From Phycisphaerales bacterium (lineage in GTDB: Bacteria > Planctomycetota > Phycisphaerae > Phycisphaerales > UBA1924), in the NCBI GenBank assembly GCA_007693765.1, contig RECZ01000088.1, positions 1 to 40,658 on the forward strand: a stretch of 40,658 nt of DNA. Direction: 5' to 3'. Of the stretch, positions 11,729-38,791 are shown one piece after another. The number at the start of each line of letters is the position of its first letter. The first letter of the stretch is position 1. A program made the translations under genes and the position numbers. The notes beneath the pieces were generated by a model that ran no database searches, had not been told where the DNA came from, and was given only the letters and a program-made list of their open reading frames with translations.

Positions 11729-11765
11729 CGTGCCACCGACTTCGCTCGCGAAGTCGGTGTCTTCC
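11729..11765. repeat. REP-like palindrome, upstream copy
   Basis: A 26-bp palindrome at 11734-11759 has 12-bp arms (CACCGACTTCGC / GCGAAGTCGGTG) and a two-base centre. It is flanked by GTGC on the left and TCTTCC on the right, so it has an orientation. Two further copies lie beyond the RAYT gene in the opposite orientation. Confidence 0.9.
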
Positions 11766-11795
11766 TAAACCTCCAAATACACACACACCGCCAGC

Positions 11796-12380
11796 ATGAC
11801 CGGGGACCGTCCATACCGAAAGCATCTCAAGCGTTGGGAATCGCCGCGCAGCGTTCGGTTCATCACGTTCTCGTGCGAAAAGCGGCTCCCGCTGTTCCGC
11901 AACCCGGCGGTATGCAAGGTCTTCATCGACGCTCTTGTCCGGGTCAGGCAGTCACGTGGCATCGAACTCTACGCATGGGCTGTCATGCCCGAGCACGTCC
12001 ACCTGTTGCTCCGATCCGGCCCCTCCGAACCGCTCGAACGCACGCTGCGCTCACTCAAAGTCGCCGTCTCCAAGCGCGTGATCGAGCGATGGCGCAGCCT
12101 CGATGCGCCGATCCTCGCGCGCCTCTCGCGCCCGGACGGCGGCCACCGCTTCTGGCTCAAGGGCGGTGGGTTTGACCGGACCGTGCGAGACAGCGCCGAG
12201 TTCTCGCGGACGGTCCGTTACATCCACCGCAACCCCGTCGAACGGGGGTTGGTCGAGCACGCGGAGGACTGGCAGTGGTCGAGCGTGCGCTGGTGGATGG
12301 GCCGGCGCGAAGGTGAAATCGCGTGTGACCCGCCGCCGGTGGACGATGCGTCCATCGCACGCTGGAGGGGGTACGTCTGA
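11796..12380 (+). CDS. REP-associated tyrosine transposase (RAYT, Y1 family)
   Basis: A 194-residue single-strand DNA transposase of the IS200-like Y1 superfamily. FITFSCEKRLPLF near the N-terminus and the HUH motif PEHVHLLL (around residues 65-72) bind the metal ion. The helix with the TVRYIHRNPVERGLV segment holds the candidate catalytic tyrosine, and EDWQWSS is typical of RAYTs. RAYTs are domesticated transposases thought to mobilise REP palindromes. Here the gene is directly flanked by one palindrome upstream and two inverted copies downstream, forming a compact REPtron-like unit. The reading frame is intact. It lies between the peptidase and the LpoB-like gene. Confidence 0.93.
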   Translation: MTGDRPYRKHLKRWESPRSVRFITFSCEKRLPLFRNPAVCKVFIDALVRVRQSRGIELYAWAVMPEHVHLLLRSGPSEPLERTLRSLKVAVSKRVIERWRSLDAPILARLSRPDGGHRFWLKGGGFDRTVRDSAEFSRTVRYIHRNPVERGLVEHAEDWQWSSVRWWMGRREGEIACDPPPVDDASIARWRGYV

Positions 12381-12396
12381 CGAGGATCGGAGGCTT

Positions 12397-12434
12397 GGAA
12401 GACACCGACTTCGCATGCGAAGTCGGTGGCACGG
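12397..12434. repeat. REP-like palindrome, first downstream copy
   Basis: A palindrome at 12403-12428 has the same 12-bp arms as the copy at 11734 but centre AT. The flanks GGAAGA and GCACGG are those of the upstream copy in reverse complement, so it is inverted relative to it. It begins 16 bp after the RAYT stop codon. Confidence 0.9.
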
Positions 12435-12459
12435 TGTGCTCATGCACGAGGCGGGGCAT

Positions 12460-12497
12460 CGAAGACACCGACTTCGCTCGCGAAGTCGGTGGCACGG
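12460..12497. repeat. REP-like palindrome, second downstream copy
   Basis: A palindrome at 12466-12491 has arms identical to the other copies and centre TC. It is in direct orientation to the copy 63 bp to its left. It also lies 29 bp past the 3' end of the minus-strand lpoB-like gene and may help end transcription from both sides. Confidence 0.9.
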
Positions 12498-23971: not shown

Positions 23972-24167
23972 CCCCCGCCCCCATCCCCTCCACGGTCGCG
24001 CGCGGCCGAAACACACGAAATCTATGCGTGCATGCGCTCGCGCCACGAACGCGCGATGCGCTTCTCAGTCGCCGCGGAGTGCGCCCTGTGTGCGCTCCGC
24101 GGCGGCGCGCGCAGCGGCCGCCGCTGCGGGAGGCGCCGCCGACTCGGTGTGGGTATACGTGCGGGCC

Positions 24168-24728
24168 GTGGCACGCCCCTCCGCCAATCTGCGTCTCTTT
24201 GTCGCGGTCTATCCCCCCGCCGATCTGGCCCGTGAAATGCTGGCTCGTATGCGTGCGTTCGATCTCGACGCCCACCGCGCCACGCCGCCCGAGCAAGCGC
24301 ACCTGACGCTGCATTTCATCGGCGACACGCCCGTGCGGGAGATGGAACGCACGGAAGAATCGGTGCTGCGCGCGTGCGCCGGGCTGCGTGCATTCGAGCT
24401 CACGCCAGAGGCGTTCATCGCCCTGCCGGACGCGTCAAACCCCCGGCTCGTTGCGCTCCGCACCGATGCGCCGCCGACGCTGCTGGAGATCAAGCGACGC
24501 CTGGCGCTGCGCTTTGCGAAGCGTTCACGGCGCAACGCCGCGGACCGCTTCGTCCCGCACGTCACCCTGTGCCGGTTCCCCACGCACGCCAGCGTCGCCC
24601 CCTTCGAGGACCGGCCGGCGACGGGCCTGCGCCCGTTCACCGTCGGCCGGGTGCTGCTGATGCGGTCGACGATCGCCGCGGGCGGGGCCACGCACCACCT
24701 CGTGGCCGCGGCGGGCCTGGCTCCCTGA
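24168..24728 (+). CDS. thpR: RNA 2',3'-cyclic phosphodiesterase, ThpR/LigT family
   Basis: About 186 residues, a two-histidine phosphoesterase. LRLFVAVYPPADL is the typical N-terminus of this family. The two catalytic HxTx motifs are HLTL (residues 45-48) and HVTL (131-134). Family members open 2',3'-cyclic phosphates and can join tRNA half-molecules in vitro; the physiological role is uncertain. The start is a choice: GTG at 24168 gives the usual family length, whereas the frame is open to 24024 with an alanine- and arginine-rich extension that looks non-coding. No clear ribosome-binding site helps. It lies 75 bp before tRNA-Ser. Confidence 0.85.
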   Translation: MARPSANLRLFVAVYPPADLAREMLARMRAFDLDAHRATPPEQAHLTLHFIGDTPVREMERTEESVLRACAGLRAFELTPEAFIALPDASNPRLVALRTDAPPTLLEIKRRLALRFAKRSRRNAADRFVPHVTLCRFPTHASVAPFEDRPATGLRPFTVGRVLLMRSTIAAGGATHHLVAAAGLAP

Positions 24729-24803: not shown

Positions 24804-24895
<92 letters not shown>

Positions 24896-25104
24896 TTTCA
24901 TTGCTCAACCGCTCTGCGCACTCTGGGTATACCCTCAAACGCGGGCCCCGAAGGCGTCACTACGACCGCACTGCTGGCCGCAATTCCTAACAAATACCTT
25001 CCCAAACGGCCGGCGATGGCTACGCACCCTATCGGGGCATAGCCCGCACGGTCGCTTCGTCGACAGGCCGATACGGTGGAGAACGGGAATTTCTACAAAA
25101 AAAA

Positions 25105-25164
25105 TGCGGCGGCATGGGGAAGCGAGCAATTTGCCCGCGTGTGGTAATTTTGGTGACCGCCGCA
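25105..25164. repeat. Long-range inverted repeat with A-tract
   Basis: TGCGGCGG (25105-25112) and CCGCCGCA (25157-25164) are perfect complements around a 44-base AT-richer loop. An eight-base A run precedes the left arm at 25097-25104. On the minus strand this would read as a long-loop stem followed by a T-tract. It could be a terminator for minus-strand transcription, a regulatory site or part of a small RNA. Confidence 0.4.
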
Positions 25165-25245
25165 CACCTTTGGGGGTTTTATTTGGACCCTGTGAGGATG
25201 ACGAAAATATTCGTGTTCGGCGTACAGAACCCGGATGTCGAAGGG

Positions 25246-25284
25246 CTGATCACCTCTTGACAGGGGGGTGATCAGTGCTATGTT
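25246..25284 (+). promoter_or_regulatory. Promoter and operator of the flp/tad locus
   Basis: A consensus -35 TTGACA (25257-25262) is followed after 16 bases by TATGTT (25279-25284), a four-of-six match to the -10 box. The -35 lies in the 12-base centre of a perfect 9-bp inverted repeat, CTGATCACC (25246-25254) and GGTGATCAG (25267-25275). A dimeric regulator bound there would cover the -35 box and control the pilus genes. The transcript leader would be roughly 120 bases. Confidence 0.65.
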
Positions 25285-25412
25285 CGCAGGGTAATACCCT
25301 AGAGGCGGGGTGGTGTAAGAAGCCCTGCTTCAGCAAAGAATTTGAAGGTTCTGGCCAACTCAGGTACGTCGGCCATCGTCCGTTCGGTTCCCCTAAATGT
25401 GGAGGCATTCAC

Positions 25413-25763
25413 ATGCTGCAGCGTCTTCTTCGTAATCGCAAGGGCCAAGGCTTCGTCGAGTACGCCCTGCTCGTGGCCGGCGTCGCCCTCGTTGGCGCGA
25501 TCGGCGTCACCATCCTCGGCGACAAGACCAACGAGATGATCTCGTCCGTCGCCACCGTGCTCCCCGGCGCCAACCCGATCGTGAACAGCCCGATCTCCGC
25601 CGGCGCCATGATCGAGTTCGACGTCAACGCCGACGGCTCGCTGATCATCGATCTCGCGGCCATCACCGCCAACTCGGACGGCAACCAGCCCCGCCTGTCC
25701 GACAACCTCGGCATCGACACCGCCGACTTCACGGATCTCGTCATCACCGTCCACCCCTTCTGA
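25413..25763 (+). CDS. flp: Flp-type major pilin with extended C-terminus
   Basis: A 116-residue prepilin of the type IVc (Tad) pilus. After a short basic leader (MLQRLLRNRKG) the processing site G|QGFVEYALLVAGVALVGAIG has Glu at +5 and Tyr at +6, the Flp signature, followed by a hydrophobic helix. Flp pilins are usually 50-70 residues; here about 65 extra residues follow, with IEFDVNADGSLIIDLAAIT and FTDLVITV segments that recur in the next gene. A strong GGAGG is seven bases before the ATG. It is the first gene after the tad promoter and is followed by a hairpin, as expected for a highly expressed major subunit. Confidence 0.93.
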   Translation: MLQRLLRNRKGQGFVEYALLVAGVALVGAIGVTILGDKTNEMISSVATVLPGANPIVNSPISAGAMIEFDVNADGSLIIDLAAITANSDGNQPRLSDNLGIDTADFTDLVITVHPF

Positions 25764-25832
25764 TCGCCTTGGCGACAGAACGCAGCGGGCCTGATCGGAC
25801 GAACGACCGGGGCCGCAACCGACGAATTGCTC

Positions 25833-25870
25833 ACCCGGCGCGGGAACGCGCCGGGTGGGCATTTCCTGTT
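25833..25870 (+). terminator. Hairpin between the two pilin genes (partial terminator)
   Basis: ACCCGGCGC and GCGCCGGGT form a perfect 9-bp stem with a six-base loop at 25833-25856. It is followed by GGGCATTTCCTGTTT, a modest T-rich tail. It lies 70 bp after the first pilin stop. It probably stops or protects most transcripts, giving much more major pilin than assembly proteins. Confidence 0.65.
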
Positions 25871-25970: not shown

Positions 25971-26297
25971 ATGCGTCGAATCCTCCGCGACCGCTCCGGC
26001 CAGAGCACCCTCGAGTACGCCATGGGCATCGTGGCATTGGCGCTCGTCGGCATGGCCGCGGCCTCGCTGCTGAGTCAGCGCAGCGCGAACGTGATCTCGA
26101 TCACCAGCAGCGTGCAGCCCGGCGCCCACCCCACCGACTATTCAACGCTCGTGCCCGCGCCGTTGGTGGAGATCACCGACGTCAGCGGACAGGTCGTCAT
26201 CGATCTCGAGCAGATCACGAACCGCACCGGCACCTCCCGACTCGGCACGAACTTCGGCGTGGACGACGATTTCACCTCACTCGTCATCATCCCGTAA
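25971..26297 (+). CDS. Second Flp-type pilin
   Basis: 108 residues. The basic leader MRRILRDRSG precedes the cleavage site G|QSTLEYAMGIVALALVGMAAA, again with Glu+5 and Tyr+6. The C-terminal part mirrors that of the first pilin: VQPGAHP, then an acidic beta-like stretch VVIDLEQIT and FTSLVIIP at the end. Leader and helix differ enough that this is an old duplication. It may be a minor or tip pilin, or an alternative major subunit. The long 5' gap contains a TTGACA at 25870-25875 without a good -10 partner. It is clearly part of the tad gene series. Confidence 0.9.
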   Translation: MRRILRDRSGQSTLEYAMGIVALALVGMAAASLLSQRSANVISITSSVQPGAHPTDYSTLVPAPLVEITDVSGQVVIDLEQITNRTGTSRLGTNFGVDDDFTSLVIIP

Positions 26298-26349: not shown

Positions 26350-26793
26350 ATGAGTCCGCACGCACTCGCAACGCACGCCGCACCCTGGGTACCGCCCGTC
26401 TTCGCGGCGGTGGCGAGCGTCTACGACCTGCGCACCCGGGAAATCCCCGACTGGATCCCCATCGCCCTGCTCGTCTGGGCGGCCGTCGCGCTGCTCGTTG
26501 GCGTGCACCACGCGGACTGGCTCTCGGCGCTGGGCGGCTTGGCCCTAGCGTTCGGCATCGGCGCGCTGCTCTTCTACATCGCCGACTTCGGCGGCGGCGA
26601 CGCCAAGCTGCTCGGCGCCGTCGGCGCGTGCTACGGGCTCGGTTCCACGTTGCCAATTTTGTTCTGGATCGCCATAATGGGGGGTGTTCTGGCGGTTGTT
26701 GCGCTTGCGCGCGGGAAGCGATCATTGGCGTACGCGCCGGCCATCGCGATGGGCACGCTGATCTGGGTCGTACTTCAGGAGATACAGGGCTAG
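26350..26793 (+). CDS. cpaA: Prepilin peptidase, A24 family (TadV/CpaA)
   Basis: A 147-residue inner-membrane aspartyl protease that removes the leader from Flp prepilins. It has four to six hydrophobic helices. The catalytic aspartates are Asp26 in YDLRTREIPDW and Asp84 in GGGDAKLLGA, the GxGD motif. It lacks the N-terminal methyltransferase domain of PilD, as is normal for TadV/CpaA. The gene lies 52 bp after the second pilin and two bases before tadE. Confidence 0.93.
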   Translation: MSPHALATHAAPWVPPVFAAVASVYDLRTREIPDWIPIALLVWAAVALLVGVHHADWLSALGGLALAFGIGALLFYIADFGGGDAKLLGAVGACYGLGSTLPILFWIAIMGGVLAVVALARGKRSLAYAPAIAMGTLIWVVLQEIQG

Positions 26794-26795
26794 CA

Positions 26796-27695
26796 ATGCG
26801 ATTGCACCGCTGTCACCACCGCGCCCGATCCGAGCGCCCGGCCGACCGCCGCGGCGGCGTGCTCATCGAGTTTGCGCTCATCACGCTCATCGGCTACATC
26901 TTCATCGCCGCGCTGCTCACGTTCGGCCAGTACTTCTACTCGGCGCAGGTCGTGCAGCAGGCGGCGGACATCGCGGCCCGCGAGCTCTCGCGCACCCCGC
27001 TCCCGGCAAACATCACGTTCGACGACCTCCTCGCCGACCCGACGAACGAGTTCAGCCAGCGCATCTACTCAGAAGACTTCCTCGCGATCGACGTCACCAC
27101 CTGGGCCAACAACCCCGGCGGCGTCACCCTGCTCGAGCACCTCGACACGCTGGGCATCCCCATCGTCAACAAGGCGCTCGTGCCCGTCATGTTCATCGAG
27201 AACGTCGGCGGCACAACCCTGCTCCGCTATCCGGGAGCGCTGATCGATCGCGGCGGAACGTTCAGCGTGGCCGTTCCGCAGGTCCTGAGCATCAACGGCG
27301 CCGAGACGATCCGCTGGACGCGCGTCCTCGAAGAGATCCGCGCCCCCGGCGAGCCCAGCGCCTTCCCGCTCACCTCGCCGCAGGGCGGGCTCGTCGCGCT
27401 CCGCGTGAATTACCCCTTCCAAGCCGGCGCCATGAGCGCACACAGACCCAACCCCGGCGGCCCCTTCGAGCCCACCATCGGATCGCCCATCGAGGCGGAC
27501 GACGCCAACGTCTCCGTCGTCGGCGGCGGGATCCCCGGCGGCGGCACGCCCGTCGACCCGACCGGCGGCGCCCCCGCGGGCACGTTCGCCGGCATCTTCG
27601 GCCTCGGCAAGCAGCAGGCCCGCGGCCTCGAACTCCGGCCGTACCGGCGCGTCGTCACCGCGCAGTCAATTTTCCGACGCGAAGTCTTCGAATAA
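26796..27695 (+). CDS. tadE: TadE-like pseudopilin
   Basis: 299 residues. The N-terminal RRGGVLIEFALITLIGYIFIAALLTFGQYFYSAQVVQQAADIAARE is the TadE-like domain: a processing-like Gly, Glu+5 (GVLIEF), a single membrane helix, and a Q/A-rich amphipathic helix. The remaining ~230 residues form an exported domain with a Gly/Pro-rich loop (GGGIPGGGTP) near the end. TadE proteins are minor pseudopilins needed for Tad pilus assembly. Usual TadE proteins are 130-200 residues, so this one is long. It follows cpaA with a two-base gap. Confidence 0.85.
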   Translation: MRLHRCHHRARSERPADRRGGVLIEFALITLIGYIFIAALLTFGQYFYSAQVVQQAADIAARELSRTPLPANITFDDLLADPTNEFSQRIYSEDFLAIDVTTWANNPGGVTLLEHLDTLGIPIVNKALVPVMFIENVGGTTLLRYPGALIDRGGTFSVAVPQVLSINGAETIRWTRVLEEIRAPGEPSAFPLTSPQGGLVALRVNYPFQAGAMSAHRPNPGGPFEPTIGSPIEADDANVSVVGGGIPGGGTPVDPTGGAPAGTFAGIFGLGKQQARGLELRPYRRVVTAQSIFRREVFE

Positions 27696-27797
27696 CCCTC
27701 GACCCCGACGCGGGGCATCGGCTGGCGGGAACGCCGGCGACCAGCGACAGCAGCACCACACGAACACCATCGCACCACACGATCAAGGCGAGCATCC

Positions 27798-28787
27798 ATG
27801 CGAAACAATCGAACGTACCAGCGCTCCAGCGCACGCCCCGGGCGCACCGCCCTCACGGTGATCCTCATCATCCTCATCGTGATCCTCGGCGCCTTTGTGA
27901 CGCTCGTCGCCGTCGGCGAGGTCGCCGTCAACTGGGACGGCCTCCGCAACCGTCTCGGCCTCAATTCGAGTGAGACCAGGGCCGAGCCCGCCCGGGTCGA
28001 ACTGCGCGAGGGCCAGGCCTACGCCATCGTCACCCGCCGCCCCATTCAGGCGTACGAGGCGCTCACGATCGAGCACTTCCACGACCGCGAGGGGCGCCTC
28101 TTCCGCGTGGCCGTCACCCCCGACTCGTTCCCCTCGCCGCCCTTCAACGATGTGGTGTCCATGATCGGGCGCGTCTCCGCGACCGACATCCCCGCCGGGC
28201 GCGCCATCCACGACGGCCTGCTGATGCCCGCCGGCACCCGCCCCGGCGTCGTGGCCGCGGTGCCCCCCGGCAAGCGGGCCATGGTGCTCGACGCGTCGCT
28301 CATCCGCGGCGTGCACGGGCTCAACCGCGGCGACCGTGTGGACATCATCGCCACGATGTCGATCGATCTCGCCCGTCAATTCCGAGCCGCCACCGCCGGC
28401 GCACACGTCGCCAACCTCGGCGGCGACAGCGAGGTCAGCTCCTTCGACCGACAGGTCGTGATGCGCGTGCTTGTCGAGAACGGCCAGATCGTTCAGCCCG
28501 CCCGCCAGCGCGCAACGCAAGGCGCCCCCACCTCCAGCCGTCGCGGCCCCGAGGAGATCATCATCGCCGTCGATCCCAACGAGGTCACGCTGCTTAACGA
28601 GGCCATCGCGCTCGGCGCCGACATCATGTGCGTCGCCCGCTCAGGCCGCCCCGACGACATCGACACCACAGTGCCCACCACGTCGAGACTCGGCGGCGAG
28701 CACACCACCCTCAACGCCGTCGAGACCATCGTCGGCAACGACCGCCGCGTGATCGTCTTCCCCGGTTCCAACACCAACAACCGCTGA
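27798..28787 (+). CDS. cpaB: Flp pilus assembly protein CpaB/RcpC
   Basis: 329 residues. One membrane helix (about 18-42, TALTVILIILIVILGAFVTLVAVG) anchors the protein, with the rest periplasmic. An SAF domain covers about residues 70-150 (VTRRPIQAYEALTIEHF...IGRVSATDIPAGRAIHDGLL). The RcpC domain (about 155-290) includes GKRAMVLDASLIRGVHGLNRGD and EIIIAVDPNEVTLLNEAIALGADI. RcpC/CpaB gates or stabilises the secretin. It lies between tadE and the tadG-like gene. The ~100-bp gap before it shows no promoter, and AAGGCGAG precedes the start. Confidence 0.92.
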   Translation: MRNNRTYQRSSARPGRTALTVILIILIVILGAFVTLVAVGEVAVNWDGLRNRLGLNSSETRAEPARVELREGQAYAIVTRRPIQAYEALTIEHFHDREGRLFRVAVTPDSFPSPPFNDVVSMIGRVSATDIPAGRAIHDGLLMPAGTRPGVVAAVPPGKRAMVLDASLIRGVHGLNRGDRVDIIATMSIDLARQFRAATAGAHVANLGGDSEVSSFDRQVVMRVLVENGQIVQPARQRATQGAPTSSRRGPEEIIIAVDPNEVTLLNEAIALGADIMCVARSGRPDDIDTTVPTTSRLGGEHTTLNAVETIVGNDRRVIVFPGSNTNNR

Positions 28788-28849
28788 CCGCCGGCCGGCC
28801 TCGCCCCATCCCGCAGGTACCCGCCGACACTCGCACCAATCGCCCACGC

Positions 28850-30514
28850 ATGGCCACGAGACCCGACATCACTGCCTCGCGTCGCGGCGTCGAACGGCGC
28901 GGGTGGCGGCGTGGATCGACGTTCGTGCCTCTGGCGCTGATCGTCGTCACGTTCATGGCCATCGCCGCGGTGGCCATCGATCTCGGCATGTCGTCGCTCA
29001 CGCGCAACCTCCTGCAGACCGCCGTCGAGCACAGCGCGCTCGAGGGCGCACGATGGAAGGATGCGCTGCCCGATCAGGAACGACGCATCCTCGCCAGCCA
29101 AGCCGTCGCGCTCGTCTTCGACGACGATCTCAACATCGATGACCTCGACGAGCCCCACGCCCTCGGCGCGGGGCCGCTCTTCCGTGTCACCGGGGGGACC
29201 GGGGACCTCGACGCCCTCGGCCTGATCGAGCTCGGCGACCCCAGTCTTCCACGCGGCGGCAACGTCTACCGCGAGCGCGAAGCCTTCGCCCCCGGCGTCA
29301 ACATCTGGCTGGCGCTGAACGAGGCGAACCTGCCGCACGGCGACATGCTCTCGGGCGTGTACGACCCCGCCGCGAGCAACCTCGACGGCCGTTTCATGGG
29401 CGGCGCGTGGTTGCCCTACGACAGAGAAGACCTCACGCCCGACGCCGACGGCTCGGCCTTCCTCGTCCGGATGCGCCGCACCAACAACTTCCAGAACCTC
29501 GACCGCCTCCCCGACATCAGCACGTCCGGCCCAGCCATCCCTTACCTCTTCGGGCGCGGCTCGATGCTGCCCGGCGCCGACCCCGGCGCCACCTACTCCC
29601 CCCGCCACCACGGCATGACGGTGCGCGCCACGGCCATCGCGGACGCCCGGCCCGCCAAGACAATCGGCGCTCCCGGATACACCGACCCGCTGCTCGCCGG
29701 CGCTCTCATCCCCGGCGCGGCCCCGTTCGCGCTAGCGCTCGATTACTGGAACACGCTCGTCGTGCACATTCCCCCGGCGTTCCCGCCCGTGCTCACGGTC
29801 GATCTGGCGACGGGCGAGGTCGAAGACCTCACCGGCCCGGTGGGCGTGCTGACACGCGTAGCCACCCTCAACGCCGCCATCGACAACAGCCAGACCTCCA
29901 TCACCGTCTCCACCAACGCCGGCTTCCCCACCGACGCGACCCCCTTCCGGGTGCGGGTCGAGGGTGAGATCCTCACGGTTACCGCCGTCGCCGGCACAAC
30001 GTGGACGGTCGTTCGCGGCGCCGAGGACACACCCGCCGCGCCCCATGCCCAGGACACCGCCGTGGCGCTGCTGGCGTCGATGACGATCGGCCGACCGCTG
30101 AGCGTGGTGCGGAGCGCCCCCGTGGGCCTGTCGCCCGTGCAGGGCGCAACACGCAACGTGCTCGTCCCGCTCTACGCCACCGTGAACGTGGGCGGCTCGG
30201 ACATCGACCTCATCGTCGGGTTCGGCCTCGCCGAGATCCAGCCCGGCGTGCCGAACCCCGACCCGCTGGACCCGGCGCTCGCGTTCGAGCTGCGCAAGGC
30301 CGCGGCGACGGTGCTGCCCCGCAACACGGGGGCGACGCTCGCCGGGGCGTGGTTTTCCGAGGTTGAAGATGTCCTGGGGCCGCTCGATCCGGCCGATATT
30401 GAAGAACTCCTCAACGGCGACGGAACGCCGTTGAATCCTGGTCTGCTGGGCTGGCACGCGCAGGTCGATCAGTCGGCGCTGGCGCCGGCGCTGGTCCGCG
30501 CGTACGGCCCCTGA
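28850..30514 (+). CDS. tadG: TadG-like pseudopilin with large exported domain
   Basis: 554 residues. RRGSTFVPLALIVVTFMAIAAVAIDLGMSSLTRNLLQTAVEHSALEGA is the TadG/TadE-like N-terminus: one membrane helix followed by an amphipathic helix. The exported part lacks the usual von Willebrand A domain with a MIDAS motif. Residues ~345-407 (ITVSTNAGFP...VRVEGEILTVTAV...WTVVRGAEDT..AAPH) resemble a short beta-structured module known from phage and virion proteins and from large surface proteins. TadG is needed for pilus assembly and anchoring. The ATG at 28850 is weakly preceded by a purine run. It is co-directional with cpaB and tadZ. Confidence 0.8.
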   Translation: MATRPDITASRRGVERRGWRRGSTFVPLALIVVTFMAIAAVAIDLGMSSLTRNLLQTAVEHSALEGARWKDALPDQERRILASQAVALVFDDDLNIDDLDEPHALGAGPLFRVTGGTGDLDALGLIELGDPSLPRGGNVYREREAFAPGVNIWLALNEANLPHGDMLSGVYDPAASNLDGRFMGGAWLPYDREDLTPDADGSAFLVRMRRTNNFQNLDRLPDISTSGPAIPYLFGRGSMLPGADPGATYSPRHHGMTVRATAIADARPAKTIGAPGYTDPLLAGALIPGAAPFALALDYWNTLVVHIPPAFPPVLTVDLATGEVEDLTGPVGVLTRVATLNAAIDNSQTSITVSTNAGFPTDATPFRVRVEGEILTVTAVAGTTWTVVRGAEDTPAAPHAQDTAVALLASMTIGRPLSVVRSAPVGLSPVQGATRNVLVPLYATVNVGGSDIDLIVGFGLAEIQPGVPNPDPLDPALAFELRKAAATVLPRNTGATLAGAWFSEVEDVLGPLDPADIEELLNGDGTPLNPGLLGWHAQVDQSALAPALVRAYGP

Positions 30515-30557
30515 GACCCCCGTCCCACGCAACGCCCGACGAGGAATACAACGCTCC

Positions 30558-31793
30558 GTGTCGAAAACAACCTCCATACTCGTCGTCGGCCCCGATCGAA
30601 CCCTCCCCCGCGAGATCGACTCCGCGCTCTCCTCGCTTGAGAGCGTGCGGATGGTCACGCACTACACGCCCGACTACCGGCAGGGCATCGAGAGCGCGCG
30701 GAGCCGTCGCCCCGACATCGCCATCGTCGAGATGGGCACGGACCACCGCTCTCTGAAGATGTTCGTCGAGGAAGTGCGTGTCGGCTCTCCCGAGACGTCG
30801 ATCATCGCGGCGTACCACGCCCAGTCGCTCACCGGCGGCTCCGGCGAGAGCGACACCATCATCAAGGCGATCCGGATGGGCGTGCAGGACTTCCTACGCC
30901 GGCCCGTCTCCAGCTCCGAGCTCGAGCAGTTCCTCGAGCGGCAGCTCCATCGCCCGCAGTCCGGCGCGCAGCTCGGGCGCATCTGCACGTTCTTCGCCAA
31001 CAAGGGCGGCGTGGGCAAGTCCACCCTGTCGGTCAACGTCGCGACCCTTCTGGCCACACGCCGGCCAGGGCGCGTGCTTCTGGTGGACGCCTCGATCCAG
31101 ATGGGCGTGTGCAACACCATGCTCAACGCCCTGCACCCCAAGACGTCGCTCATCGACGCCGTGCGCGAGCGGGCCCGTCTCGACGAGACGCTCATCCGCG
31201 AGCTGGCCTACGAGCACGACAGCGGGCTGCACCTGCTCGCCGCGCCCAACAGCGCGGTCGAAGCGACAGAGATCGACGACGAGGTCATCGCCCGCATCCT
31301 CACGCTGGCGCGGCGCACGTACGACTACGTGATCGTCGACACCTTCCCCATGCTCGACAGCGTGATGATGGCCATCCTCGACCTCACCGACCGGGCCTAT
31401 CTCGTCACCGAGAGCGTGGTGCCCACGCTCCGCGGCGCCGCCAGCCTGCTCGAGACGCTCGATGAGATCGGCCTGCCCGAAGACCGCCGGCGCATCATCC
31501 TCAACCGCTACTCAAAGTTCGCGGGCAACCTGCCGGTGCGCGACGTCGCCGAGAAGCTCGGGCAGGAGATCGCCCACGTCGTGCCCTACCAGAAGAAGCT
31601 GCTCATCGCCGCCAATCAGGGCGTGCCCTTCGTCATCGGCGCCGGGCGCTCGGGCGACTTCACCCGCGCCGTGGCCAAGATCGTCGACGAGATCGACTCC
31701 GACTGGTCGCCCCGCTTTGCGCAGAGCAGCGTGCTCAACCGCTCCGAATCGTCTGAGAACACGCCCGAGCGCGGCAACGAGGTGCGTGCGTGA
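30558..31793 (+). CDS. tadZ: Pilus localisation ATPase TadZ/CpaE
   Basis: 411 residues with a GTG start. The N-terminal ~130 residues are an atypical receiver domain; the usual phospho-acceptor aspartate is replaced at IVEMG (Glu58). The ParA/MinD-like ATPase has the deviant Walker A FANKGGVGKST (residues 146-156), followed by VLLVDASIQMG. YDYVIVDTFPMLDSV corresponds to the Walker B region. TadZ/CpaE localises the Tad machinery at a pole or site on the membrane. It overlaps tadA by the four bases GTGA, so translation is coupled. Confidence 0.93.
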   Translation: MSKTTSILVVGPDRTLPREIDSALSSLESVRMVTHYTPDYRQGIESARSRRPDIAIVEMGTDHRSLKMFVEEVRVGSPETSIIAAYHAQSLTGGSGESDTIIKAIRMGVQDFLRRPVSSSELEQFLERQLHRPQSGAQLGRICTFFANKGGVGKSTLSVNVATLLATRRPGRVLLVDASIQMGVCNTMLNALHPKTSLIDAVRERARLDETLIRELAYEHDSGLHLLAAPNSAVEATEIDDEVIARILTLARRTYDYVIVDTFPMLDSVMMAILDLTDRAYLVTESVVPTLRGAASLLETLDEIGLPEDRRRIILNRYSKFAGNLPVRDVAEKLGQEIAHVVPYQKKLLIAANQGVPFVIGAGRSGDFTRAVAKIVDEIDSDWSPRFAQSSVLNRSESSENTPERGNEVRA

Positions 31794-33232
31794 CGGACAA
31801 CAACGCGCCCAACCAGGAAGGTGTTTCGCGCGACGCCCTCTCGCGGACGCACATGTCCGTGCCCGCGGCTCGCACCAAGCTCCGCGTGCGCCCCAGCGCC
31901 AACGCCTTCGAACGCGTGCGCGGCGAATCGCCCACCCCGCGAACGGGAACCGCCGGCTACATGACGGTCAAGAGCGACCTGCACGAGCGCCTCCTCAACG
32001 ACGTCGAGGCCAACAATCTGCTCGACGCCAGCGAAGAGGTGCTCACAGACTTCGTCAAGAGCTTCGTCCAGCGCATCCTGGAAAACGAGGACCTCCCGCT
32101 CAACAGCGTGGAGCGTAAACGGCTCGCCGACGACCTGATGCAAGAGACGCTCGGCGTCGGCCCGCTCGCCGCCTTGATGGCCGACCCCGCCGTGACGGAC
32201 ATCCTTGTCAACGGCCCCAGCGAGGTCTACGTCGAGCGGTACGGCCGGCTCGAGCCCACCGAGGTCCGCTTCCGCGACAACGACCACCTCGTGCGCATCA
32301 TCCAGCGCATCGCGGCCAGCGTGGGCCGACGGATCGACGAATCCTCCCCCATGGTCGACGCCCGACTCGTTGACGGCAGCCGCGTGAACGCCACGCTGCC
32401 GCCCGTCTCCATCGACGGCCCCACGCTCTCGATCCGGCGCTTCGGGCATCACCGGCTGCGCCGCGACGACCTGCTGCGGCTGAACATGTACTCCCCGTCG
32501 ATGGTGACGTTCCTCGAGAGCGCTGTGCGGGCGCGGTGCAACATCGTGATCTCCGGCGGCACGGGCGCGGGCAAGTCAACGCTGCTCGGCGCCATCGCCG
32601 AGTCGATCCCCGGGTCGGACCGCGTCATCACGATCGAAGACGCCGCCGAGCTCGTGCTCACGCAGGAGCACGTCGTCCGCCTCGAGACCCGCCCCACGAA
32701 CATCGAGGGCGTCGGGCGCATCAGCGTGCGCGACCTGCTGGTCAACGCGCTGCACATGCGGCCCGATCGCATCATCGTCGGCGAGGTGCGCGGCCCCGAG
32801 GCGCTCGATATGCTCCAGGCCATGAACACCGGCCACGACGGCAGCCTGACCACCATCCACGCCAACAGCCCGCGCGACGCCATATCGCGCCTCGAGACCA
32901 TGGTCCTCACCGCCGGCACCGAACTGCCCTCCCGCGCCGTGCGCGAGCAGATCGTCTCCGCGGTCGACCTCGTGGTGAACGTTCGCCGGTACGAAGACGG
33001 CGTCCGACGCGTCGAGAGCATCACCGAGATCACGGGCATCGAGGGCCTCACGCCGCAGACGCAGGAGATCTTCCGCTTCCAGCGTCGCGGCCGGCACGGC
33101 CGGATGATCGTGGGCGACTTCATCCCGACCGGCATCGTGCCGCGTGTCATCGAAGAGATGCAGGACAGAGACGTCTACGTTCCCCTCAGTCTGTTCCAGC
33201 ACACCGGCGCCGGCGCCAACGAGGAGGAATAA
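31790..33232 (+). CDS. tadA: Secretion ATPase TadA/CpaF
   Basis: A 480-residue hexameric ATPase of the type II/IV secretion superfamily, which drives polymerisation of Flp. The N-terminal domain (~60-200) includes PLAALMADPAVTDILVNGPSEVYVER, a CpaF hallmark. Walker A is GGTGAGKST at residues 256-264. The Asp-box region is VITIEDAAEL, Walker B is RPDRIIVGEVRG and the His-box is GHDGSLTTIHAN. A GTG start overlaps the tadZ stop by four bases, and tadB follows with no gap. An N-terminal stretch of about 55 residues is low-complexity and probably disordered. Confidence 0.95.
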   Translation: MTDNNAPNQEGVSRDALSRTHMSVPAARTKLRVRPSANAFERVRGESPTPRTGTAGYMTVKSDLHERLLNDVEANNLLDASEEVLTDFVKSFVQRILENEDLPLNSVERKRLADDLMQETLGVGPLAALMADPAVTDILVNGPSEVYVERYGRLEPTEVRFRDNDHLVRIIQRIAASVGRRIDESSPMVDARLVDGSRVNATLPPVSIDGPTLSIRRFGHHRLRRDDLLRLNMYSPSMVTFLESAVRARCNIVISGGTGAGKSTLLGAIAESIPGSDRVITIEDAAELVLTQEHVVRLETRPTNIEGVGRISVRDLLVNALHMRPDRIIVGEVRGPEALDMLQAMNTGHDGSLTTIHANSPRDAISRLETMVLTAGTELPSRAVREQIVSAVDLVVNVRRYEDGVRRVESITEITGIEGLTPQTQEIFRFQRRGRHGRMIVGDFIPTGIVPRVIEEMQDRDVYVPLSLFQHTGAGANEEE

Positions 33233-34105
33233 GTGCAGATCGGCATCATCACACTCGTCATCGTCGTCGCGCTGCTGGCGCCGGCGTTGTACTTCTTCCG
33301 CTCGGCGCAGGTGCAGCGACGCTCGCGCGAGCGCCTGGAGGAAGCGCTGCAGTCGCCACCACGCGAGGGCGAGCCCGCGCCGCCCGCGGCGTCGCGCATC
33401 CCCCCCGTGCTGCCGCGCTACCGGGCCGTCCCGTGGCTGATCGCGGCGTTCGTCTTCCTGTTCTGCCTCATCGGCTTCGGCCTGAACCTGCTCTTCTCGG
33501 TGGTCTTCGCGGCCATCGCGTTGCTGCTCACCTCTCAGCTCGAACACATCTATCACGAGCGTCGCATCCTGCGGTTCGAGATGCAGCTCGCCGACGCGAT
33601 CGACCTGCTCGTCTCCTCGCTGAACGCCGGCGCCGGCGTCACCCGGGCGCTCGAGTTCGCCGCGGAGGAATCGGGCAGCCCGCTCAAGCAGCAACTCGAG
33701 CACATCACCGCACGAATCCGCTACGGCGACGATCCGCAGTCGGTCTTCCGCGCGTTCATGCGTCGTGTGCCGCTCGAGAACGTGCGCCTCTTCTCCACGG
33801 CGCTCTCGGTGCACTGGGAGGTCGGCGGCAGCCTCGGGCCAACGCTGGCGATGATCGGGCGCTCCGTGCGCGACCGCATCGAGATCACTCGTCGCATCCG
33901 CACGATGACGGCGCAGACGCGCATCTCGACGATCGCCGTCATCATCGCCACCTATTTCATCGCGCTGATCATGTGGCGCAACGCCCCGGACCGCTTCGAG
34001 GCGTTCCTCTCGACCCCCGTCGGGCAGGCGCTCGTCGCCGGCGCCATCTTCCTCCAGGCCGTCGGCATCGCCTGGTCCGCCGCACTCAGCAGGCCGAGGT
34101 ACTAA
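33233..34105 (+). CDS. tadB: Tad platform protein TadB
   Basis: 290 residues with a GTG start immediately after the tadA stop; GAGGAGG in the tadA tail serves as ribosome-binding site. A helix at the N-terminus and a pair around residues 65-100 precede the type II secretion F domain (FEMQLADAIDLLVSSLNAGAGVTRALEFAAEE), which is followed by two C-terminal helices. TadB and TadC form the inner-membrane platform that couples TadA to pilin. Confidence 0.93.
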   Translation: MQIGIITLVIVVALLAPALYFFRSAQVQRRSRERLEEALQSPPREGEPAPPAASRIPPVLPRYRAVPWLIAAFVFLFCLIGFGLNLLFSVVFAAIALLLTSQLEHIYHERRILRFEMQLADAIDLLVSSLNAGAGVTRALEFAAEESGSPLKQQLEHITARIRYGDDPQSVFRAFMRRVPLENVRLFSTALSVHWEVGGSLGPTLAMIGRSVRDRIEITRRIRTMTAQTRISTIAVIIATYFIALIMWRNAPDRFEAFLSTPVGQALVAGAIFLQAVGIAWSAALSRPRY

Positions 34106-34108
34106 GCC

Positions 34109-35044
34109 ATGTCCATGACCGCGATCATCGTGCTGCTGGTGTGGGTCGCCATCGCCGTGGCGCTCTTCTTCGTCTTCCGCCGCCTTGCCTCGGGCCAGCA
34201 CGCCCGGCAGCGCCTCTTCGCGTCCCAGAGCGCCCCCGTCTCCGACCCGCCCAAGGCCCGCCAGCCCGGCTCGACCGGCGGCTCGCTCACCCGCTGGCTC
34301 TACCTCGCGGGGTACCGCGATCCAACGGCGCCGCTGGCGTTCATTCTCATCACGATCCTGCTCGCGGCCCTCGGGCTCGGACTGGCTTTCGTGCTCGTGC
34401 AGTCGGGTCTGATCGAGCGCGGCTCGTACGCGCTGGGCGCTTTCCCCGGCGGCGTTCTCGAGATCTTCATCCCGGTGCTCATCATCGCGCCGTATCTGGT
34501 GCTGCTGCTCGTGGCGCTGCTGCCCACGGTGGTCGTCCGTGCCCGTCGGCGCAAGCGCGTCACCAAGATCGAGCAGGACCTGCCCATCACCCTCGAACTG
34601 CTCGCCACGCTCACCGAGGCCGGCCTCGGCTTCGACGCCGCGCTCGATCGGCTCATCCGCTCGCAACCCGCCGACCGCCCGCTCACCAGCGAGTTCCGCA
34701 CCTTCCAGGCCGAGACACTCTCCGGGCGCACCCGAGTAGTCTGCTTCCGGCGCATGGCGCGGCGGATCGACATCCCCTCGTTCAACGTCTTCGTCTCGGC
34801 GATCGTACAGGCCGAGCAGTCCGGCGCCGGCATCGCCAACACACTGCGCCATCAGGCCGACGACCTCCGCAACATCCGGCGCGAGCGGGCCCTCGAGTTC
34901 TCGATGTCCCTGCCCGTCAAGCGGCTGGTGCCGATGGTCATCTGCTTCCTGCCCGGCATCTTCGTCGCGGCCCTCGGCCCCCCCTTCGCCGAGCTCATCC
35001 GACAGGTCAACACCCAAGTTATCGGAGGCGCCGGTACGCCATGA
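34109..35044 (+). CDS. tadC: Tad platform protein TadC
   Basis: 311 residues. N-terminal helix (1-25), helices near 75-95 and 105-135, then a type II secretion F domain (KIEQDLPITLELLATLTEAGLGFDAALDRLI) and a C-terminal helix (VPMVICFLPGIFVAALGPPFAEL). It starts three bases after tadB, and its TGA stop overlaps the next gene's ATG by four bases. It works with TadB as the membrane platform. Confidence 0.92.
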   Translation: MSMTAIIVLLVWVAIAVALFFVFRRLASGQHARQRLFASQSAPVSDPPKARQPGSTGGSLTRWLYLAGYRDPTAPLAFILITILLAALGLGLAFVLVQSGLIERGSYALGAFPGGVLEIFIPVLIIAPYLVLLLVALLPTVVVRARRRKRVTKIEQDLPITLELLATLTEAGLGFDAALDRLIRSQPADRPLTSEFRTFQAETLSGRTRVVCFRRMARRIDIPSFNVFVSAIVQAEQSGAGIANTLRHQADDLRNIRRERALEFSMSLPVKRLVPMVICFLPGIFVAALGPPFAELIRQVNTQVIGGAGTP

Positions 35045-35472
35045 GCCGCCCGATCTGGAGCCTCCGGATCCTGGGAACCGGCGACACCGTCGCGAGCCGC
35101 GTGACGATCGCCGACGGCTTCCTTTCTCGCTTGCGCGGCCTGCAGTTCCGCCGCCCCCTCGGGCCCGGTGAGGGCCTCCTCCTAGTCCCCTGCTCCTCGA
35201 TTCACACCATGTTCGTCCGCGGGCCGATCGACGCGGTGTTCCTCGACCGTTCCGGAGCCGTGCTCGGCGTCGAGCACCACATCTCACCTTGGCGTCCGCT
35301 CGTGAAGGCGCCGCGCAAAACTTACGCGACACTCGAACTGCCCGCCGGCGGCGGGCGTGTCCACAAGGGCGACAGACTGCAACTCGACGGGAGGCCCCCG
35401 AATGGCGTTTCTCCCCCAAAATCAGTACGATTCATCACCGGACGCTCACTCGCCGCCGTCCCGACCATTTGA
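35041..35472 (+). CDS. DUF192 family protein inside the tad operon
   Basis: 143 residues. The segment GFLSRLRGLQFRRPLGPGEGLLLVPCSSIHTMFVRGPIDAVFLDRSGAVL is the DUF192 signature, in particular SxHTxFMxxPIDxxFLD. No clear signal peptide is visible, whereas many DUF192 proteins are exported. The start ATG overlaps the tadC stop (ATGA), and the secretin gene begins seven bases after its stop. It is therefore locked into the tad operon. The function of DUF192 is not established; a role in pilus assembly or substrate handling is an inference from position. Confidence 0.88.
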   Translation: MSRPIWSLRILGTGDTVASRVTIADGFLSRLRGLQFRRPLGPGEGLLLVPCSSIHTMFVRGPIDAVFLDRSGAVLGVEHHISPWRPLVKAPRKTYATLELPAGGGRVHKGDRLQLDGRPPNGVSPPKSVRFITGRSLAAVPTI

Positions 35473-35479
35473 GGGTGAT

Positions 35480-37408
35480 ATGCACGCAAATCTCCTGACA
35501 CGCATCCGTACATCGCTCCGCGCACGCGCAGCGCGCACGCCGGGCGCATCCTCGTTCACCGCCCGCCGCTTGTGGCTGATGGCGCCGACGGGGCTGTTCC
35601 TCCTGCTGCTGCCGATCATGCCGCTGCAGGGGCAGGACCGCACCGCTACGACGCAACCCGGGCACAACGCGGCGGCGCAACGCGCTGCCCCGACGAACGC
35701 CAACGGCGACCCGTTCCGACTGCAGGGCACGCGCCTCGGGATGCTCGACAGCCCCGACGGCACGCTCGGCGCCACGCCGCGGCCGACGGACGAGACCGCG
35801 CGCCGCTTCGGGCGTTTCGTCGATCGCTTCGTCGACGCGGACAACACGCTCGATGTCGTGACCGGGCGCCCGCGCATCCTGGTGTTCAAGCGTCCGCCGC
35901 TGCGCATTCAGATCCCCGATGAGAACGTCGCTCGGTACGACATCCTCACCGACCGCGAACTCTCCATCACCGGCCTGAACGTCGGGCAGACGCTCCTCAA
36001 CATCTGGTTCGCCGACCCCGACCACCCCAGCGGGCAGGAGATCCTCAGCTACCTCGTCCGCGTGGTGCCCGACCCCGAAGCACGCGAGCGCCTCGAGCGC
36101 GTGTACTCAGCGCTCGAAGATGAGATCAACAACGCCTTCCCCACCAGTCTCGTCAACCTCTCGCTCGTGGGCGACACGCTGATGGTCGAGGGTCAGGCCC
36201 GCGACATCGCCGAGGCCGACCGCATCATGCGCGTCATCGAGGCCAACGCCCCGCGCATCGAGGCGCGCATCCCCGTCGACGCGTGGGACGACTCGCCCGA
36301 CTTCGGCGCCATGACCACCGACGCCGGCCTCTCCTCGACCTCCGGCATGCTCACCCCCGGCCTCAGCCGCTTCTCCAGCACGCCGCTCGAGTCCGACGGC
36401 TACCGCGCCGCCATGGGCCGCAGCGACGCCCGCATGGGCGCCCGCGGCCGCACCGCCGCCCGCGCGAGTTCGCTCAACATCGTCAACCTCCTGAAGATCC
36501 CCGGCGAGCCCCAGGTCTCGCTCAAGGTCACCGTCGCCGAGGTCAACCGCGCCGGCGCCCGCTCCATCGGACTCAACTTCTCCTACACCAACAACTCCGG
36601 CATCACGGTCATCGAAAGCCTCACCGGCGGCATCGCGACCGGCGGCCTGGCCAACCTTCCCGCCTTGCTCGACGGCGGCCAGCTCTCGCTCGCCATCAAC
36701 GCCCTCCGCGGCATGAGCCTCGCCAAGTCGCTCGCCGAGCCCAACCTCGTCGCCCTCAACGGCCACACCGCCTCCTTCCTCGCCGGCGGCCAGTTCCCCG
36801 TGCCCGTCGTCACCGGCGCCACCGCGACCGGCCTGCAGGGCGTCGAGTACGTCCCCTTCGGCGTCGAGCTGCGTTTCACCCCTTACATCCTCGATCGCGA
36901 CCGCATCCGCCTCGTGGTCACCGCCGAGGTCAGCACCCGCTCGGTGCCCAACTCGACCATCATCAACGGGCAATCCGTCCCCGGTCGCGACACCCGCACC
37001 TTCCACACCGTGGTCGAGCTGCGCTCGGGCCAGACGCTGGCCGTCGCCGGCCTGATCCAGTCCAGCATGGGTTCGGACGCCGACCGCATCCCCGGCGCGG
37101 GCGATCTGCCGCTCATCGGCTGGCTCTTCGGCTTCAACCGCACCACCGCCAGTGAGCAGGAGCTCGTCGTGCTCATCACGCCCGAGCTCGTCCACCCGCT
37201 CGATAAGAACGAGGTGCCCCACTTCCTCCCCGGCGACGACATCTTCGAGCCCGACGACCTCGAGTTCTACCTGCTCGGCCGCCTCGAGAGCCGCCACAGC
37301 GAAGATTCCCGCAACGTCGTCCTCACCGACTACGAGCGCCAGGGCCGCGCCCGCGCCTTCGAGCGGAAGTTCATCCTCGGCCCCTCCGGCCACTCCGACC
37401 AGCGCTGA
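35480..37408 (+). CDS. cpaC: Tad secretin RcpA/CpaC
   Basis: 642 residues from the ATG at 35480, which has GAGGG six bases upstream; an alternative ATG at 35402, also with GGGAGG, would give 668 residues and overlap the DUF192 gene. A basic leader and a hydrophobic segment (LWLMAPTGLFLLLLPIMPLQGQ) target the protein for export. The N-terminal pilus secretin domain (ILVFKRPPLRIQIPDE...LNVGQTLLNIWFAD) is followed by a BON-like strand-helix (VNLSLVGDTLMVEGQARDI...). The secretin domain runs from about residue 335 to 570, with PNLVALNGHTASFLAGGQFP, VPFGVELRFTPYIL, LRSGQTLAVAGLI and ELVVLITPELVHPL. It forms the outer-membrane pore for Flp export. Confidence 0.93.
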   Translation: MHANLLTRIRTSLRARAARTPGASSFTARRLWLMAPTGLFLLLLPIMPLQGQDRTATTQPGHNAAAQRAAPTNANGDPFRLQGTRLGMLDSPDGTLGATPRPTDETARRFGRFVDRFVDADNTLDVVTGRPRILVFKRPPLRIQIPDENVARYDILTDRELSITGLNVGQTLLNIWFADPDHPSGQEILSYLVRVVPDPEARERLERVYSALEDEINNAFPTSLVNLSLVGDTLMVEGQARDIAEADRIMRVIEANAPRIEARIPVDAWDDSPDFGAMTTDAGLSSTSGMLTPGLSRFSSTPLESDGYRAAMGRSDARMGARGRTAARASSLNIVNLLKIPGEPQVSLKVTVAEVNRAGARSIGLNFSYTNNSGITVIESLTGGIATGGLANLPALLDGGQLSLAINALRGMSLAKSLAEPNLVALNGHTASFLAGGQFPVPVVTGATATGLQGVEYVPFGVELRFTPYILDRDRIRLVVTAEVSTRSVPNSTIINGQSVPGRDTRTFHTVVELRSGQTLAVAGLIQSSMGSDADRIPGAGDLPLIGWLFGFNRTTASEQELVVLITPELVHPLDKNEVPHFLPGDDIFEPDDLEFYLLGRLESRHSEDSRNVVLTDYERQGRARAFERKFILGPSGHSDQR

Positions 37409-37466
37409 CCCGTCCGATTCACGCGAACCTCACTCGCCACCACACTCTGTGCGAGCCAGCATCACC

Positions 37467-37991
37467 ATGAACACCACGAACAACGCACGACGTCTCTGCC
37501 GCCTCGCCGCCGTCGGTGGCCTCGCCGCCTTCCTCGCGATCAGCGTCGGCTGCCACGACAGCAAGCGAGAGGACATCCCCGCCGGGGCCCAGCCCCTGCC
37601 GCTCGGGTCCTCCGTGCGCGAGTTCAACCACCGTCAGGCGCAGAAAGCACGGGCGGACGCCTTCGTCTTCTACCGCTACGAGTGGGACCGCGAGACGGCG
37701 GAACTCACCGAGTGGGGCGCCCGCCACCTCAACCGCGTCCTCTCGGCCATGCACCGCGAGCATCACCCGATCGTGATCGAGCCCGCGCCCGACGCCAGCC
37801 TCAACGAGGCCCGCCGGCGGACCATCATCGCCGCGCTCGCCCGCCACGACGTTGACTACCCCGAGCGCCGCGTGGTCATCGCCTACCCAGGCGCACTCGA
37901 CATGACCGGCGACGACGCCATCCTGCAGTTCGACAAGTACATCCAGGACTCCGCCGGGCGCGGCGCCGGAACCGGTGGCGGCATACGCTGA
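37467..37991 (+). CDS. Tad-associated lipoprotein of unknown family
   Basis: 174 residues. The signal peptide ends in the lipobox SVGC (Cys29), so it is probably membrane-anchored. The mature part is soluble and mixed helix/strand (ADAFVFYRYEWDRETAELTEWGARHLNRVLSAMH, then PIVIEPAPDASLNEARRRTIIAALARHDVD). The region ...IVIEPAPD.SLNEARRR...L has the look of an OmpA- or CpaD-like fold, but the match is weak. It lies where other loci have cpaD/rcpB or an OmpA-like protein, so an equivalent job at the secretin is plausible. Confidence 0.72.
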   Translation: MNTTNNARRLCRLAAVGGLAAFLAISVGCHDSKREDIPAGAQPLPLGSSVREFNHRQAQKARADAFVFYRYEWDRETAELTEWGARHLNRVLSAMHREHHPIVIEPAPDASLNEARRRTIIAALARHDVDYPERRVVIAYPGALDMTGDDAILQFDKYIQDSAGRGAGTGGGIR

Positions 37992-38086
37992 TCAACCGCG
38001 TCGCCGACTCGGACCGCGGCCGAACGTTCCCGATGCCCGCCCCGCGTCACACTCGCCCGCTTCCCGCCCTAAGGTGGGAGAGAGCC

Positions 38087-38791
38087 ATGTCCATCACCCG
38101 CAACTCCGCCATCTGTGCACTCGCCGCAAGCCTCGCGCTCATCGCGGGCTGCGCGGGCGGTCAGGGCTCGCAGCGCTCTGGCGTTCAGCCCCCCCCGGGA
38201 TCGCAGGACCTGCCGCCAAACCAAGCCGCGGAAGTGTGCTTCGCCACCGCGCGTGAGCTCGAAGAAAACGGCTTCGACGCCCAGGCCATCGTCCAGTACG
38301 AGCGAGCCCGCCAATTCAACCCCCGCATCGCGGGCGTCTCGCGTCGTTTGGCCGTGCTCTACGACCGCACGGGCGACACCGCCCGCGCCAACGCTGAGTA
38401 CCAGAAGGCGCTCAACAACACCCCCAACGACCCCGCGTTGCTCAACGACTACGGCTACTTCCACTACGTCCGAGGCAACTGGAAAGAAGCCGAGGTGCAG
38501 TTCCGCCGCGCGCTGGCAATCGACAACTCCAACGCCCGCGCCTGGAACAACCTTGGGCTTACCCTCGCGCAGTTGGGCAACTACGACGCCGCCTACGAAG
38601 CCTCCGCGAAGGCCGTCGGCCCGGCGGAGGCCCGGGCCAACGTGGCGATGATCATGGTCAGCCACGGCCGATTCGACGAAGCGACACGATCGCTCCAGCA
38701 GGCGCTGGCGATCAACCCCGATCTGCCCCGCGCCAGGACTGTGCTCGAGTGGCTCCGCGACCAGCCGCGCGACGGTCAGCTTCCCCCCTGA
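38087..38791 (+). CDS. tadD: TadD-like TPR lipoprotein
   Basis: 234 residues. The lipobox IAGC places the lipidated cysteine at residue 22. The mature part is a series of tetratricopeptide repeats: IVQYERARQFNPRIAGVSRRLAVLYDRTGDTARANAEYQKALNNTPNDPALLNDYGYFHYVRGNWKEAE..., ending with LQQALAINPDLPRA. TadD/TadD-like pilotins support secretin assembly. GGTGGGAG lies just before the ATG. It is the last gene of the tad run and converges on the secreted dockerin-like protein gene. Confidence 0.88.
   Translation: MSITRNSAICALAASLALIAGCAGGQGSQRSGVQPPPGSQDLPPNQAAEVCFATARELEENGFDAQAIVQYERARQFNPRIAGVSRRLAVLYDRTGDTARANAEYQKALNNTPNDPALLNDYGYFHYVRGNWKEAEVQFRRALAIDNSNARAWNNLGLTLAQLGNYDAAYEASAKAVGPAEARANVAMIMVSHGRFDEATRSLQQALAINPDLPRARTVLEWLRDQPRDGQLPP

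Follow-up and report, generated by a model that had tools for sequence, protein, structure and literature searches.

Does the inverted repeat that encloses the -35 box in front of the first pilin gene of a planctomycete tad (Flp pilus) operon serve as an operator, or has a palindrome fallen by chance on a working promoter? The repeat was studied in a stretch of 40.7 kb (40,658 nt; the window), which is the whole of contig C167 of a 2.9-Mb genome in 176 contigs, the only one of its genus among the genomes compared.

The tad/Flp locus

Judged by its sequence, the gene set from position 25413 onward is a tad/Flp locus, encoded on the plus strand. The operon starts with the first pilin gene, flp1 (25413-25763, 116 aa), which showed a match to a class III signal peptide below the Pfam cut-off, followed by the second pilin-like gene, flp2 (25971-26297), which is 39% identical to flp1 and matched DUF4244, again below the cut-off. 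The assembly genes assigned with Pfam occupy 26350-35044 and encode an A24 prepilin peptidase, TadE, RcpC/CpaB, a TadG-like and a CpaE/TadZ-like protein, CpaF/TadA, TadB and TadC; an AAA/ParA-type protein, a T2SSE ATPase and two T2SSF proteins were recognised among them, while the RcpC and Tad family matches remained below the cut-off. They are followed by a secretin (35357-37408, Pfam), an unassigned ORF (37152-37991) and a TPR protein (38033-38791, Pfam), which may be TadD-like. The arrangement is that of Tad/Flp pilus operons, i.e. pilins first and then prepilin peptidase, TadE, RcpC, Tad, CpaE-like protein, T2SSE ATPase, two T2SSF proteins and secretin. The pilins differ in length, however, with 108-116 aa compared with about 60 aa for the Flp pilins of other family members. 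Upstream neighbours are a tRNA-Ser (24804-24895) and a LigT-like gene (24024-24728, Pfam scan). No match to a DNA-binding regulator family was obtained among the 29 window ORFs scanned with Pfam, and a literature search on tad pili with the stem Phycisphaer- found nothing.

Pilins of this type were very rare. A search of 150 family genomes yielded, besides the own genome, only Phycisphaeraceae bacterium CoA8_V101 (G049) and, weakly, G012, and profile searches found just the own genome and G049, both in 163 family genomes (2/163) and in 400 order genomes. At class level, 6 of 397 genomes gave matches at E<=1e-6, the own genome and G049 included, the more distant ones matching in the N-terminal part only.

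The predicted promoter of the tad operon

A preliminary description of this DNA had proposed a promoter of the tad operon directly upstream of flp1, with a consensus TTGACA and a plausible -10 box, TATGTT, 16 bp downstream. Both boxes were confirmed on the plus strand, TTGACA at 25257-25262 and TATGTT at 25279-25284, the latter preceded by TGC, which provides an extended -10 TG. The hexamers are near TTGACA/TATAAT, and their distance of 16 bp is within the 16-18 bp of sigma-70-type promoters. With its extended -10 the site scored 10/12 and was the single promoter-like site between 24500 and 26500 (0.3 expected), and the pattern TTGAC-N17-19-TANNNT was matched once in the entire window (0.16 expected). 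The position of the -10 box predicts a transcription start at about 25288-25291 and, with the pilin ATG at 25413, a leader of about 120 nt. A small dyad, AGGGTAATACCCT, over the predicted start (25288-25300) is of a frequency expected by chance. The 517 bp upstream of flp1 contain no recognised gene, and the GC content over 24900-25450 is 52-61%, compared with 69% in the window; regulated promoters are often AT-richer.

The tad locus of G049 (L031, taken as the same contig as G049:C67) resembles that of the window in having a homologous pilin pair, a promoter with a 16-bp spacer and TG, and a strong hairpin between flp1 and flp2, but it lacks the palindrome, and its upstream neighbour is an NtrC-type regulator instead of the tRNA-Ser and the LigT-like gene. 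Its promoter, TTGACT-N16-TACATT with TG (2876-2903), shows the same spacing as that of the window, lies 100 bp before the pilin ATG, scores 9/12 and is the sole site in 1.4 kb (0.1 expected). The upstream DNA of the two loci does not align beyond chance. A common block, ATGGGG...GTGTGG (window 25114, L031 2808), was discarded as a conserved footprint, being reached in 44 of 500 shuffles, and the best match close to the promoter, reached in 21 of 500 shuffles, leaves the promoters unaligned. Since neither upstream match aligns the promoters beyond chance, conservation of the promoter rests on layout and not on alignment; the surrounding DNA is unaligned, and the common layout is therefore unlikely to stem from mere sequence similarity. 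When the regions upstream of eight pilin genes in seven genomes (own genome included) were compared, only the window and G049 showed the layout. Being the sole promoter-like site in 2 kb, with the same layout at the sole homologous locus found, the site is well supported as the predicted main sigma-70-type promoter of the tad operon.

The terminator-like hairpin between flp1 and flp2 was very stable in both genera, with -37.4 kcal/mol in the window (25828-25861, plus strand) and -29.2 kcal/mol in L031 (3480-3510), although a mechanical terminator scan listed only that of the window. This suggests that most transcripts would stop after flp1, yielding more of the major pilin than of the assembly proteins. 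The more solid result of this analysis is that two genera whose upstream intergenic DNA otherwise hardly aligns have kept both the promoter layout and a strong hairpin downstream of flp1.

Genes for an NtrC-type regulator and a sensor-kinase-like protein adjoin tad in one genus (L031, 33-2659). The NtrC-type regulator was rejected as a linked regulator of the present operon: the window's genome encodes a relative with 65% identity, but on another contig (C67; L100, 3765-5258), where its neighbours are presumably FtsI-like and M48-like genes. In three related family genomes (L074, L075 and L076), the sequences CTTGCA... and TTTGCAC are shared about 100 bp before the start of a small Flp pilin. 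The pilin upstream regions of these three showed no good sigma-70-like promoter, and the common stretch is perhaps another promoter type for tad.

The inverted repeat and its expected frequency

The perfect 9-bp inverted repeat around TTGACA, as first described, is exact. It reads CTGATCACC-N12-GGTGATCAG and spans 25246-25275, with the left arm CTGATCACC at 25246-25254, the right arm GGTGATCAG at 25267-25275 and a 12-bp loop, TCTTGACAGGGG, that contains the -35 box. The arms carry TGATCA cores, 21 bp apart from centre to centre, and may also be read as a direct repeat, i.e. GGG[C/G]TGATCA twice, 22 bp from start to start. The left arm also lies within a separate imperfect palindrome of 18 bp, and the right arm has no wider palindrome. 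The two-arm sequence was unique in the window (0.01 expected at up to 3 mismatches).

The palindrome is notable for its position, not for its existence. When the 517-bp upstream region was shuffled 3000 times, 3.4% of the shuffles held a perfect inverted repeat (arms of at least 9 bp, loop of at most 20 bp) at any position, and 0.3% held one that overlapped the -35/-10 core. Across the 40.7-kb window, 28 entries of similar size were counted (nested repeats counted apart), compared with 9-29 in eight Markov shuffles. It is quite possible, if the less favoured reading, that a chance palindrome lies on a functional -35/-10 pair, that the repeat is not under selection and that regulation resides elsewhere in the 517-bp upstream region; both the chance frequency of such repeats in the window and the 3.4% of shuffled upstream regions that contain one agree with this. 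The overlap of the dyad with the promoter elements, at the 0.3% level, is beyond chance and argues against it, but the figure is suggestive at most, because a reader of many promoters occasionally meets such a case.

Searches in the own and in related genomes

Further copies, which could have pointed to a regulon, were not found. The own genome (2.9 Mb) contained no other CTGATCACC-N12-GGTGATCAG site at up to 3 mismatches, no TGATCAC...GTGATCA pair at spacings of 2-32 besides this one, and no second stretch resembling the 517-bp upstream region. The genome search suggested in the preliminary description thus ended with a single site, which fits a chance origin of the repeat; single-site operators do exist.

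The same description had named conservation in relatives as a test of its claim, and here the result was negative. CpaF was matched at E<=1e-40 in 14 other family genomes. Six of these were fetched for upstream comparison, and the palindrome was absent upstream of all seven tad pilin genes compared in them; only one of the six (L031/G049, of another genus) has a homologous pilin. Its absence from that orthologous promoter, where the promoter layout is kept, is what a chance palindrome would lead one to expect. Operators often turn over between genera, however, and this sole homologous locus (57% identity in the pilin, 72% in CpaF) is too distant for the absence to weigh much. The absence is hence weak evidence against an operator, yet it leaves the claim without positive support.

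Elsewhere, near matches to the repeat lay mostly inside genes. At up to 2 mismatches it was matched in 36 of 150 family genomes, own genome included, and 23 of the 29 loci examined from these matches (L002-L030) lay in coding-like ORFs, again as expected of chance. Near matches were present in 7 of the 14 CpaF-bearing genomes, none of them on the contig with the CpaF match. At up to 1 mismatch, the repeat was found in 5 of 400 order genomes, own genome included, the other four matches lying in open frames of at least 218 codons; the exact repeat was not found in any other of the 400. Three exact matches in IMG/VR, with the same surroundings in related contigs, were dismissed as a phage link, since the match in L099 lies inside a 375-aa frame and is taken as coincidence. 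No operator of this sequence was found in the literature, and papers on the two half-sites were unrelated, judging by their titles.

Folding of the plus strand

On the plus strand the repeat can form a hairpin of 14 pairs with a GACA loop, in which G-U pairs extend the stem. Over 40 nt the folding energy is -25.7 kcal/mol (z -6.5), compared with -14.5 kcal/mol for the minus strand. An equally stable fold was reached by only 0.3% of the window's plus-strand 40-mers, and a 40-mer at -25 kcal/mol or lower occurred in 4 of 300 shuffles of the upstream region. These values would agree with an RNA element for pausing, processing or factor-dependent termination, carried by a longer transcript that starts at a promoter farther upstream or reads through from the tRNA-Ser gene. 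We regard such a role as improbable. Transcription from the promoter in the loop would begin only downstream of the hairpin, a search upstream gave no other good promoter match, and no T run follows the hairpin, so that an RNA role needs a longer transcript. The G-U extension is a run of six Gs facing C/T, which is easily obtained by chance, and no matching hairpin was found at that place in L031. Rfam gave no family match at 25246-25412 with E up to 1. An intrinsic terminator was likewise rejected, as the hairpin is followed by TGCTATGTT instead of a T run and was not listed by the terminator scan.

Possible regulation of the promoter

The repeat had originally been described as the operator of a dimeric regulator. 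The position of the repeat fits this claim, whereas its conservation does not, and overall the claim is plausible. The favoured reading, at about even odds, is that the repeat is a lineage-specific putative operator, at which a dimeric regulator would block the -35 box. For an operator speak the enclosed -35 box, the rarity of such an overlap among shuffles, the AT-richer upstream gap and the phase of the arms; against it speak the lack of conservation, the single genomic site, the lack of a recognised regulator gene in the window and a repeat size at chance frequency. A helix-turn-helix regulator might occupy the site as a single dimer that contacts both 9-bp arms, or as two dimers, one at each TGATCA core. 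As the distance of 21 bp corresponds to two helical turns, both arms would be on the same face of the DNA. Bound over the -35 box and the spacer, the regulator could repress by occlusion, shutting out RNA polymerase until it is released by a signal, and the centre of the whole site, at about -30 from the predicted start, suits such an occlusion.

Overlap with the -35 box of a sigma-70 promoter is typical of a general class of repressor operators, and a palindrome over a promoter is an ordinary kind of element and not surprising. The present site shares with this class a perfect dyad around a consensus -35 box near the predicted start, but differs in the 21 bp between the half-site centres, which exceeds the single helical turn that separates half-sites in most single-dimer sites. 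A MerR-type operator, in which the repeat is centred between the -35 and -10 boxes across a long spacer of 19-20 bp, was rejected: here the spacer measures 16 bp and the centre of the repeat falls on the -35 box.

The two arms could also be separate palindromic TGATCA-core sites for an activator and no repressor operator at all, which we consider very unlikely. If transcription starts at 25291, the centres of the cores would fall at about -41.5 and -20.5, the upstream one at the position of a class II activator site, and the direct-repeat reading of the arms and the wider palindrome around the left arm are in line with this. The start site is itself a prediction, however, and the -35 box is a perfect consensus combined with an extended -10, a promoter type that as a rule works without a class II activator. 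Moreover, the right arm has no comparable extension, and the TGATCA pair is not conserved in the tad pilin upstream regions compared.

To return to the putative operator, a further and rather doubtful step would be a new planctomycete tad regulator, dedicated to this promoter and binding two TGATCA half-sites astride the -35 box, at a site that arose in this lineage alone on a shared promoter. If the repeat is an operator, a 60-bp bait would offer a way into the control of adhesive pilus formation in a planctomycete.

Other palindromes in the window

Perfect palindromes were also observed far from the tad locus. An IS200-like Y1 transposase gene (11796-12380) is flanked by three copies of CACCGACTTCGCNNGCGAAGTCGGTG, which form perfect palindromes of 12-13 bp (11734-12491) and were present in none of the other loci fetched. 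This arrangement looks like a REP-associated tyrosine transposase with REP-like hairpins.
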